From positions 186,001-250,000 of the forward strand of contig NZ_AUMC01000003.1 in the NCBI RefSeq assembly GCF_000443995.1: DNA of 64,000 nt, in the 5' to 3' direction. The position numbers were made by a program, and so were the translations under genes. Below, piece by piece: positions 13,612 to 23,242 of this stretch. Within the stretch, counting starts at the first letter, position 1. Each line of letters opens with the position of its first letter. Under the pieces are notes generated by a model. The model searched no databases. It was not told the origin of the DNA and saw only the letters and a program-made list of their open reading frames with translations. Source of the DNA: Bacteriovorax sp. BAL6_X. Lineage in GTDB: Bacteria > Bdellovibrionota > Bacteriovoracia > Bacteriovoracales > Bacteriovoracaceae.

Positions 13612-14907
13612 ATGAGTTTTACAGATTACAAAGTAGCAGACATCTCTCTAGCTGACTGGGGAAGAAAAGAAATTAAAATCGCTGAAACTGAAATGCCGGG
13701 ACTAATGTCTCTAAGAAAAGAGTTTGGAGCGTCAAAGCCACTTAAAGGTGCAAAGATTGCAGGTTGTCTTCACATGACTATTCAAACAGCTGTGCTTATC
13801 GAAACTCTAGTTGAGCTAGGTGCTGAAGTAAGATGGTCTTCATGTAATATTTATTCAACTCAAGATCAAGCTGCTGCGGCAATCGCTGCTGCTGGAATTC
13901 CTGTTTTTGCTTGGAAAGGTATGAACGAAGAGGAATTTGACTGGTGTATCGAGCAAACTCTTAAATGGGCAGATGGATCAGCACTTAATATGATCCTTGA
14001 TGATGGTGGTGACCTTACAAATATGGTTCACGACAAATATCCTGAGCTAATCGAAGGAATCAAAGGTCTTTCTGAAGAAACAACTACTGGTGTTCACAGA
14101 CTATATGAAAGAGTTAAAGCAGGAACACTTAAAATGCCAGCAATCAATATCAATGACTCTGTTACAAAGTCTAAGTTTGATAACCTTTATGGATGTAGAG
14201 AATCTTTAGTAGATGGTATTAAGCGTGCAACTGACGTAATGATCGCAGGTAAGACTTGTGTTGTTGTTGGTTACGGTGATGTTGGTAAAGGTTCAGCTCA
14301 GTCTTTCAAAGGTCTTGGAGCTAGAGTAATCGTTACTGAAATCGATCCAATCTGTGCTCTTCAAGCAGCTATGGAAGGTTTCGAAGTAATGAAAATGGAT
14401 AAAGCAGCTGCTGAAGGTGATATTTTCGTTACAACGACTGGTAACTACCACGTAATCAATGCATCTCACCTTGATAAGATGAGAGATGGTGCAATTGTTT
14501 GTAACATTGGTCACTTTGATAATGAAATCGACATCAAGCACCTACATAACAACTACGAAGAAGATAATATCAAGCCACAAGTTGATCTTTATACAGGAAA
14601 AGATGGTAAGAGAATCATTCTTCTTGCTCAAGGTCGTCTAGTTAACCTTGGTTGTGCAACTGGGCACCCTTCATTTGTTATGTCGAACTCATTTTGTAAC
14701 CAAGTTATTGCTCAAATGGAACTTTGGGACAATGCTGGAAAATATGAGAACAATGTTTATATGCTACCTAAGCACCTAGATGAAAAAGTTGCTCGTCTTC
14801 ACCTTAAGAGAATTAATGTTGAAATCGATGAACTTTCTCCTCAGCAAGCTGAATACATCAGTGTACCTGTTGAAGGTCCATATAAGCCAGAACACTACCG
14901 TTACTAA
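13612..14907 (+). CDS. ahcY: Adenosylhomocysteinase
   Basis: 431 residues. It hydrolyses S-adenosylhomocysteine to adenosine and homocysteine, clearing the product of SAM-dependent methylation. The NAD-binding fingerprint [20 protein letters not shown] is present, with [20 protein letters not shown] near the N-terminus and the family's C-terminal tail ending in PEHYRY. It lacks the roughly 40-residue insertion of some bacterial forms. The start has a GAGGAAA ribosome-binding site. A structured RNA-like element begins 4 nt after the stop, then a terminator. Homocysteine made here could feed the CBS/cystathionine lyase genes at 35-38 kb. Confidence 0.97.
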
Positions 14908-14911
14908 GCAG

Positions 14912-15010
14912 CTGCGAAATTGACTGGCTACGGCCAGTCTATTGTTCGCGGTGCTAGCTCCCCATGAAAGGAGTAGGCTCCAATCGAGAGCGAGGGTTCA
15001 AGCCCGAGCG
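14912..15010 (+). ncRNA. Unknown structured 3'-UTR RNA element, copy A
   Basis: CTGCGAA (14912-14918) pairs with TTCGCGG (14945-14951), enclosing ATT, a GACTGGC/GCCAGTC hairpin with a TACG loop (14922-14939), and TATTG. One base later comes GCTAGCTCCCCA (14953-14964), then 29 variable bases and the hairpin core GGGTTCAAGCCCG (14994-15006). A second copy at 23011 keeps the two blocks and all outer pairs while changing their bases, which argues for selection on RNA structure. I do not recognise a named family. It may be a processed 3'-UTR RNA or an RNA of its own ending at the terminator 15045-15076. Confidence 0.6.
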
Positions 15011-15044
15011 GTTCGCTTAAGGAGCAAAAAGAATGTATAATATG

Positions 15045-15076
15045 AAAAGAGCCTCGTTTATGAGGCTCTTTTTTTT
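15045..15076 (+). terminator. Rho-independent terminator after ahcY and element A
   Basis: AAAAGAGCCTC (15045-15055) pairs with GAGGCTCTTTT (15062-15072) around a 6-base loop and runs into T8. It separates ahcY plus the RNA element from rpiB, whose ATG is only 10 bp further on. Confidence 0.9.
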
Positions 15077-15086
15077 GAGGTAAATC

Positions 15087-20971: not shown

Positions 20972-23005
20972 ATGTCTAATCCATTATTAGAAAAATTTAC
21001 AAATCCACATGGTGCAAGGCCATTTGATACAATCAAAAATGAGCACTATATGCCGGCCATTAAAGAGGCCATCAAAATGCACAAAGAAGAAATCGAAGCG
21101 ATTAAAAACTTTGATGGTGAACTTACATTTGCAAATATCATTGAGCCATATGCAAATTCAGGAAGTGCAATTGAAGATATTTCAATGATCTTTTTTAACC
21201 TAAAGTCAGCAAACACAAATGATGAGATGAATGAAATCGCAAAAGAATTCTCACCATTATTAACTGCTCATGGTAACGACGTTAACCTTGATGCTGATCT
21301 TTTTGCTAAGGTTAAAGTTGTTTTTGATAACAAAGAAAATGAAGACTTAAACGCTGAGCAGATGACTCTTCTTACAAAGATCTATAAAGGATTCGTAAGA
21401 AATGGTGCTCTTTTAAGTGAAGAAGATAAGAATAAAGTAAGAAAGATTGATGAAGAGCTTTCTAAGCTAGGTCTAGAGTTTTCGGATAATCTTTTAAAAG
21501 AAACGAATAAATTCGAAATGATTTTAGATAATAAAGAAGATTTAGCAGGTCTTCCTGAAGGACTTATTGAAGCTGCTGCAATGACAGCAACTGAAAAGGG
21601 TCATGAAGGTAAGTGGGTATTTACTCTTGATTACCCAAGCTTTGGTCCATTTATTACATACGCGCAAAATCGTGAATTACGTAAGAAGATGACAATCGCT
21701 TCTGGGACTAAGTGTGCTAAAGGAGATGAACTTGATAATCAAGAAAACGTAAAAAGAATTGCTCAGCTTCGTTTTGAAAGAGCTGGAATTCTTGGATACA
21801 AGAGTCACGCTGATTATATCTTAGAAGAACGTATGGCCATGAGTGCTCAAAACGTTTTTGATCTTTTAAATAACTTAAAAGAAAAAGCAATGCCGGCAGC
21901 TGTTGAGCATATGGATGAAGTTAAAGCCTATGCAAAAGAACAAGATGGTGTGGAAGACTTCTCTTCATGGGACTATATGTACTACTATGAGAAGTTAAAG
22001 AAAGAAAGATATAGCATTGATGATGAAATGCTAAAGCCATACTTCAAGTTAGAGAATGTTCTTAATGGTGTTTTTGAAGTTGCAACTAAGCTTTATGGAC
22101 TAAACTTTAAAGAAGTATCTAATATTCCAAAGTATCACCAAGATGTTATGACTTATGAAATTACTGATCGTGATGGAAATTTCATTTCATTATTCTACGG
22201 AGATTACTTCCCACGTTCGTCTAAGCGTGGTGGAGCATGGATGACTGCATTTAGAGAACAATATGTACTTAATGGTGAAGATGTTCGTCCACATATTGCA
22301 AACGTTTGTAACTTTACAAAGCCAACAACGACGAAACCATCACTTCTAACTTTCAATGAAGTAACAACTCTATTCCATGAGTTTGGTCACGCTCTTCACG
22401 GTATTCTAACTAAGTGTCAGTACCGTATGCTTTCAGGTCCAAATGTATACTGGGATTTCGTTGAGCTACCTTCACAAATTTTAGAAAACTGGTGTTTTGA
22501 AAAAGAATGTTTAGACCTATTTGCTAAGCACTATGAAACTGGAGAGTTAATTCCTGCTGAATTAGTACAAAAATTAAAAGACAGTTCTAACTTTGGAGAA
22601 GGTCGTCACACGATTCGCCAATTAAGCCTTGGCCTACTTGATATGGCATGGCACTCAGGTGATCCATCAAATATTACAAATGTTGAAGAATTTGAAAATC
22701 TTGCAACTCAAGATGTTCAACTTCTTCCAAAAGTTCCAGGAACAATGGTTTCTACTTCATTTGGTCACATCTTTGCGGGTGGATACTCAGCTGGTTACTA
22801 TTCGTACAAGTGGGCCGAAGTTCTAGATGCAGATGCATTTGAATTATTCTTAGAAGAGGGGATCTTCAATACAACAATTGCAGATCGCTTTAGAGAGAAT
22901 ATCCTTGAAAAAGGTGGTTCAGAGCACCCAATGGATCTTTATAAGAGATTCCGTGGCCGAGAGCCAGAGGTTGATGCTCTACTTAGACGTGGTGGTCTTA
23001 TTTAA
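20972..23005 (+). CDS. M3-family oligopeptidase (Dcp/OpdA-like)
   Basis: 677 residues, full length for peptidyl-dipeptidase Dcp or oligopeptidase A. The zinc site HEFGH (469-473) in TTLFHEFGHALHG and the downstream FVELPSQILENW with the third ligand are intact. FGHIFAGGYSAGYYSYKWAE near the C-terminus is a family hallmark. It degrades short peptides in the cytoplasm or periplasm; no signal peptide is seen, so cytoplasmic. Dcp and OpdA cannot be separated with confidence here. It lies 31 bp after the transporter gene with a TAGGAG ribosome-binding site. RNA element copy B begins 5 nt after its stop. Confidence 0.92.
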   Translation: MSNPLLEKFTNPHGARPFDTIKNEHYMPAIKEAIKMHKEEIEAIKNFDGELTFANIIEPYANSGSAIEDISMIFFNLKSANTNDEMNEIAKEFSPLLTAHGNDVNLDADLFAKVKVVFDNKENEDLNAEQMTLLTKIYKGFVRNGALLSEEDKNKVRKIDEELSKLGLEFSDNLLKETNKFEMILDNKEDLAGLPEGLIEAAAMTATEKGHEGKWVFTLDYPSFGPFITYAQNRELRKKMTIASGTKCAKGDELDNQENVKRIAQLRFERAGILGYKSHADYILEERMAMSAQNVFDLLNNLKEKAMPAAVEHMDEVKAYAKEQDGVEDFSSWDYMYYYEKLKKERYSIDDEMLKPYFKLENVLNGVFEVATKLYGLNFKEVSNIPKYHQDVMTYEITDRDGNFISLFYGDYFPRSSKRGGAWMTAFREQYVLNGEDVRPHIANVCNFTKPTTTKPSLLTFNEVTTLFHEFGHALHGILTKCQYRMLSGPNVYWDFVELPSQILENWCFEKECLDLFAKHYETGELIPAELVQKLKDSSNFGEGRHTIRQLSLGLLDMAWHSGDPSNITNVEEFENLATQDVQLLPKVPGTMVSTSFGHIFAGGYSAGYYSYKWAEVLDADAFELFLEEGIFNTTIADRFRENILEKGGSEHPMDLYKRFRGREPEVDALLRRGGLI

Positions 23006-23010
23006 GCGTT

Positions 23011-23115
23011 CCGCAAAATTGGCCGCCCAAAGGCGGGCTATTGTTTGCGGCGCTAGCTCCCCAGTCTTTAGCTAATAAATTATTTCAACAAGCCGGGTTC
23101 AAGCCCGGCTTTTAT
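23011..23115 (+). ncRNA. Unknown structured 3'-UTR RNA element, copy B, with terminator
   Basis: CCGCAAA (23011-23017) pairs perfectly with TTTGCGG (23044-23050), enclosing ATT, a CCGCC/GGCGG hairpin with a CAAA loop (23023-23036), and TATTG. One base later is GCTAGCTCCCCA (23052-23063), identical to copy A. After 31 bases comes AAGCCGGG-TTCAAG-CCCGGCTT (23090-23111) followed by TTT, which should act as a terminator for the M3 peptidase message. The 13-mer GGGTTCAAGCCCG (23095-23107) is also identical in copy A. Positions 2 and 5 of the outer stem differ between copies but still pair. Confidence 0.6.
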
Positions 23116-23242
23116 ATTCAGGATGAATGGTATGTCCACGAAGGCAGGATCCGAGAGTGGACTGTTGTTTCTGGAGCCAAGGATGGGAAAGTTATCGCAA
23201 AAGAAAAGCGACACTTTAGCTTTGCTAAAGTTAGCAAAGGAA

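Follow-up and report, generated by a model that had tools for sequence, protein, structure and literature searches.

The element downstream of the M3 peptidase gene

Within a 64,000-nucleotide stretch of the genome of Bacteriovorax sp. BAL6_X (hereafter the window), a structured element lies at the 3' end of a gene encoding an M3 peptidase of the oligopeptidase A family, and a related element lies 3' of ahcY. We refer to these as copy B and copy A respectively, and the coordinates of their parts are collected in Table 1. Both had been recognised in a first-pass annotation through a stem and two shared blocks, a 12-mer and a 13-mer. In copy B these blocks were found where the annotation had placed them (the 12-mer at 23052-23063), in copy A they begin at 14953 and 14994, and their recurrence is far above chance; no other site in the window comes within one mismatch of either block, the numbers expected from shuffled sequence being 0.08 and 0.01. 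The CCGCAAA/TTTGCGG stem of copy B is exact, and what was described as the same stem in copy A has the same shape with different letters (CTGCGAA/TTCGCGG). Minimum free energy z-scores are -3.1 for copy B and -4.6 for copy A.

Table 1. Coordinates, within the window, of copy B, copy A and their parts.
Feature	Position	Strand	Remarks
Copy B, whole element	23003..23191	+	From the stop codon through the conserved tail, GGATGGGAAAG
TAA stop codon of the M3 peptidase (oligopeptidase A family) gene	23003..23005	+	Base of P1
Copy B P1 hairpin	23006..23053	+	Outer arms 23011-23017/23044-23050
Copy B P1 internal loop	ATT 23018-23020 / TATTG 23039-23043	+	
Copy B P2 5' arm, GCTCC	23056..23060	+	Within the 12-mer; partner co-varies in other copies
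Copy B P2 3' arm, GGAGC	23173..23177	+	From alignment with other copies
Copy B P4 hairpin, U-tailed type, terminator-like	23090..23111	+	Contains the 13-mer, 23095-23107
Copy B extra domain, two AGGA(U)-bearing hairpin segments	23112..23165	+	Common to L075 and L079
Copy A, whole element, 3' of ahcY (L067)	14905..15031	+	P2 arms 14957-14961 and 15021-15025
Separate intrinsic terminator after copy A	15048..15077	+	

The boundaries of copy B had to be redrawn. It does not end at 23115, as first supposed, but runs to approximately 23191, because the GGAGC partner of GCTCC sits beyond an extra domain; and its start, given as 4-5 nt past the stop codon, is indeed stop-proximal but coincides with the stop codon itself. 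The extra domain, of about 55-60 nt, lies between the P4 hairpin and the P2 3' arm, and two further copies in this genome have one. Copy B scores 83 bits with covariance model R1, although the model ends before this domain. Hairpin loops containing AGGA(U) (AUUC-AGGAU-GAAU) occupy 23116-23163 of the extra domain and occur likewise in L075 and L079; they resemble CsrA-type binding sites. After copy B there is a second, P1-like hairpin at 23208-23235 (GCGACACTTTAGC..GCTAAAGTTAGC), with a near-identical one after the L064 copy, and these are possibly remnants of a tandem unit.

A lineage-restricted family at stop codons

A genome-wide search had been proposed for these blocks. Pattern and BLAST searches of this genome gave further copies, and a covariance model built from 12 of them returned 23 copies at 17 loci, copies A and B among them. 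Fifteen loci hold single copies, one a three-unit array with a 119-bp period and one a five-unit array with a 117-bp period. Among congeners the models matched G003 five times, G001 once and G005 twice, and in G005 two more diverged copies, 3' of groES and 3' of groEL, were seen only by way of the orthologous site; all genome-wide counts are lower bounds, since the first filter can miss diverged copies, as it did the G005 groEL copy. The models found no copy in the remaining 125 genomes searched from the order, and viral contigs, phages and plasmids yielded either nothing or 37-nt, chance-like matches to the hairpin. Rfam 15 gave no family match at gathering or relaxed thresholds, and a literature search found no earlier description of the module in Halobacteriovorax. 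The family, whose members are approximately 100-190 nt long and comprise the helices P1, P2 and P4, is, among the genomes searched, restricted to the Halobacteriovorax lineage, with copies in this genome and diverged relatives in three congeners.

At each of the 17 loci in this genome, the element is in sense orientation to the preceding gene and comes immediately after its stop codon. In the 16 that retain P1, its 5' arm starts either at the stop codon or inside it (TAAGC... or ATAGCG...); from the groEL copy P1 has been lost. From the gene density of the window, the probability that 18 loci out of 18 fall at such sites is approximately 2e-22, a rough value computed for 18 loci where the actual count is 17, a difference that leaves the conclusion unchanged. 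The suggestion that a 3'-end position on the same strand matters is upheld by this placement, together with the strong covariation described below, and the random positions and orientations that would have pointed to a mobile repeat are not seen in this genome. The exception comes from a congener, in which one copy (L095, G003:C21:238005-238123) adjoins a tRNA-Ser gene instead of lying at a stop codon. A 13-bp repeat (CGGAGAATTGGCC) of the start of the tRNA flanks this block on the side preceding the element, which looks as if it had been inserted with target duplication.

Housekeeping genes had been named as the hosts, correctly for most loci in this genome: ychF, rpsA, ahcY, atpD, guaA, the oligopeptidase A-type M3 peptidase gene, relA/spoT-type, nifU-like and electron-transfer flavoprotein alpha genes, lpd, metG, tex, groEL and one gene with a NuoI-like product. 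Three upstream genes gave no family match. One interpretation of this placement is a translational brake, with ribosomes stalling at the stop codon and thereby lowering expression or triggering mRNA cleavage. That P1 starts at the stop codon in every locus of this genome having P1 would suit such a brake, as would the analogy with E. coli REPs lying no more than 15 nt from a stop codon, as reported in PMC12306157, citing Liang et al. 2015. A brake would however be costly where the hosts mostly need high expression (rpsA, groEL, atpD and, in G005, fusA), and we consider this explanation quite improbable.

Secondary structure and covariation

The module opens with a hairpin, P1, anchored at the stop codon and interrupted by an asymmetric internal loop (in most copies of this genome, ATT facing TATTG); a helix, P2, then closes a hairpin-bearing domain. 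RNAalifold predicted 32 pairs from 12 copies, with double changes in 23 of them. Across 28 distinct alignment rows, 91.9% of cells are paired, double changes affect 28 of the 32 pairs, and the covariation score is 0.48 as against 0.16 for shuffled and at most 0.10 for slid alignments, values which lean towards the covariance model to which that alignment was fitted. Covariation in the module is very strong; sequence turns over and pairing is kept by compensatory change. By eye, P2 alone takes approximately six complementary forms (GCUCC/GGAGC, GGCC/GGCC, GCACC/GGUGC, ACCUC/GAGGU, GCCCU/AGGGC and probably GCGC/GCGC), and P4 occurs in two types, one U-tailed (AACAAGCC...GGCTTTGTT) and one without the U-tail (CGAGAGC...GCGGTTCG). 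The types of P1, P2 and P4 combine differently to give mosaic copies, and the unit that ends the five-unit array is itself a hybrid. The bases between the shared blocks, at first called unrelated, prove otherwise across the family, in which most copies carry a CTTTAGCTA segment and one of the two P4 hairpin types. On the sense strand, G-U wobble cells number 19 against 8 A-C cells, a weak hint that this is the strand that folds.

In the ahcY copies of this genome (L067) and of G001 (L091/L112), GCUCC could pair with either of two partners, a nearby GGAG(C) separated from it by an 8-nt loop or the distant GGAGC, which makes a two-state fold possible. Downstream of fusA in G005 (L097), a variant has two more hairpins inside P1, with the ATT/TATTG internal-loop motif apparently repeated.

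A further proposal is that the module gives rise to 3'-UTR-derived small RNAs whose seed would be the C-rich stretch GCUAGCUCCCC. This stretch, which follows P1, is kept in nearly all copies, and copies ahead of separate terminators could give discrete 3' fragments. But GCUCC is mostly paired in P2, and where it has become GGCC, GCACC or ACCUC its partner has changed with it; the seed is thus not fixed, and a small-RNA source is hardly probable at all. Other readings were tried and rejected. A tRNA or tmRNA interpretation of the T-arm-like GGGTTCAAGCCC fails since ARAGORN returned only a tRNA-Leu elsewhere and other copies have not retained the loop; stop codon readthrough into a hidden repeat peptide fails since, by inspection, the post-stop frame is open in few copies and the frames of the TAA and TAG types differ; and AGGAGC as a Shine-Dalgarno sequence fails since it is missing from the GGCC subtype.

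Transcription termination

Copy B had been proposed to double as the terminator of its gene, through an 8-bp hairpin followed by T residues. Hairpin and T residues are both present, with nine pairs rather than eight ahead of TTATATT, and the hairpin fits the terminator pattern; the combination belongs to the U-tailed subtype, copy B included, and is absent from the other. Six copies without a U-tailed P4 (ahcY, rpsA and L061 in this genome; peroxiredoxin, groEL and nqrF in congeners) are each followed by an intrinsic terminator of their own 36-86 nt after the element. U-tailed copies, by contrast, mostly lack a separate terminator (Fisher p 0.002-0.016, the value varying with the way in which the etfA array enters the count).

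If the module were mainly a transcription terminator, the 3' hairpin and T residues would end the transcript, and the U-tailed P4 found at 12 loci in this genome, mostly without another terminator, is what such a role would predict. Yet the T-run of copy B is internal to the element, the P2 3' arm and the tail downstream of the hairpin are conserved, and in most copies the T-run is broken (TTTGTTG). Intact elements also lie inside operons, between groES and groEL in G005 and between atpD and atpC, where read-through is required if the downstream gene is on the same transcript. Moreover, terminator-like sites in the region are no more numerous than in shuffled sequence. A principal role in termination is very improbable. 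Given the operon-internal copies and the separate terminators after non-U-tailed copies, termination is at most an added property that the U-tailed subtype may have; as a general role it is not supported, and copy B may nonetheless terminate.

Gain and loss at orthologous sites

None of the five congeners has the element at its M3 peptidase gene, where three of them show an ordinary terminator instead, and so the element is not needed there. In a comparison that took in G000, G001, G002, G003, G005 and G007, the ahcY element was present in the first two and absent from the other four. At groEL, an element occurs in G003 and, diverged, in G005, a remnant in G000, and plain terminators in G001, G002 and G004; at the atpD loci of congeners, no clear element emerged from cmsearch run with its filters off. 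The patterns at the M3 peptidase, ahcY and groEL sites indicate that the module is gained and lost, and where a site is shared across species (ahcY and groEL), sequence turnover is near-complete while pairing is kept.

Sporadic presence and tandem arrays show that the module spreads, so that being a module and being a spreading repeat do not exclude one another in this case. The first-pass annotation had argued for a 3'-end module and against a random repeat; the 3'-end module is supported, and it also spreads.

Spread could be all there is, were the module a selfish, non-autonomous mobile repeat (REP/BIME- or MITE-like), tolerated only beside stop codons and with hairpins that serve a single-stranded DNA transposase rather than the host. 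Its sporadic occurrence among orthologs, its arrays and its mosaics are as expected of such a repeat, four Y1_Tnp genes are present in the same genome, and the tRNA-Ser copy of the congener has its flanking 13-bp repeat. The palindromes next to Y1_Tnp genes nevertheless differ in sequence from the module, inspection finds no terminal inverted repeats or TA duplication, the copies in this genome are always sense at stop codons, and complementary change has been kept in many helices. A purely selfish repeat is possible, though unlikely.

Comparison with known repeats and RNA families

Like the REP/BIME elements of E. coli, the module is dispersed, forms hairpins, lies 3' of genes and is sometimes tandem. 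It differs in size (a REP/BIME unit of 20-40 nt against approximately 100-190 nt with several helices), in being always sense at a stop codon in this genome, and in its strong helix-by-helix covariation. E. coli REPs are described in PMC12306157 as stabilising mRNA and as stalling ribosomes when no more than 15 nt from a stop codon, roles that offer analogies to the module and not membership. No palindrome is common to the module and the flanks of 12 Y1_Tnp loci in six genomes, where the flanking palindromes are GGTGCCATGCACC.. and GTATCGACGTACC-like, and a RAYT-driven REP was rejected on this mismatch. In this genus, the RAYT-type genes at L135, L136, L137 and L129 are bordered by distinct REP-like families (GGTGCCATGCACC..TTTGGTTTCGCA and GTATCGACGTACC).

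As regards MITEs, the 5' end (TAAGCA..) and the 3' end (..GGAGCAATGGGAAAG) form no inverted repeats, and a TA pair was not seen on inspection; the 13-bp repeat at L095 is a single case. The MITE-like ERIC/YPAL/RU-type repeats are similar in being structured, intergenic and approximately 100-170 nt long, and some have been reported close to stop codons; the module differs from them in lacking terminal inverted repeats or a TA duplication (by inspection), in its fixed orientation, and in its mosaic domains and closing helix P2. The best weak match in Rfam was Pseudomon-groES RNA (RF01721), a structured RNA linked by name to the gro operon, which scored 20.9 bits where the gathering score is 50 (E 0.075) and showed many broken pairs, and this resemblance is probably coincidence. 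No described family among those searched fits the module, and its size, stop-codon anchoring and covariation are unusual for structured dispersed 3'-UTR repeats.

Proposed action and significance

Conserved pairing and a fixed 3' position and orientation, by which a cis-acting 3'-UTR RNA may be known, were both found, and we infer that the module acts in cis, as RNA, on the upstream mRNA. Since sequence changes while shape is kept, and at stop codons, it very probably affects the end of host mRNAs. Most likely, a compact fold at the end of the reading frame would block 3'-to-5' exonucleases and so keep the coding region intact. Since the stop codon is where the 5' arm of P1 starts, the fold would probably be coupled to translation termination; a ribosome at the stop codon has a footprint that would cover this arm, P1 forming only when no ribosome is there, and a terminating ribosome would thus open it. 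The U-tailed subtype, copy B included, may additionally end transcription. On this model the module probably protects mRNA ends, senses the terminating ribosome, or both.

Sporadic presence weighs against this model, the M3 peptidase gene being without an element in five of five congeners, and spread, arrays and mosaics would fit a selfish repeat as well. In our judgement there is an even chance that the copies form a family of structured RNA modules of the 3'-UTR, restricted to one lineage, that act in cis on the upstream gene, probably as a barrier at the mRNA end. A bolder version, a new class of self-spreading, stop-codon-targeted RNA whose ribosome-opened P1 links mRNA decay or protection to the frequency of full translation, is improbable.

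Most described structured bacterial RNA elements act at gene starts. If the proposed action is true, a multi-helix, covarying and still-spreading module anchored at the stop codons of core genes would be a natural system in which to ask how 3' ends, translation termination and mRNA decay are connected, in a marine predatory lineage with little-known RNA regulation, and would illustrate the recruitment of a repeat as a portable part of the 3'-UTR.
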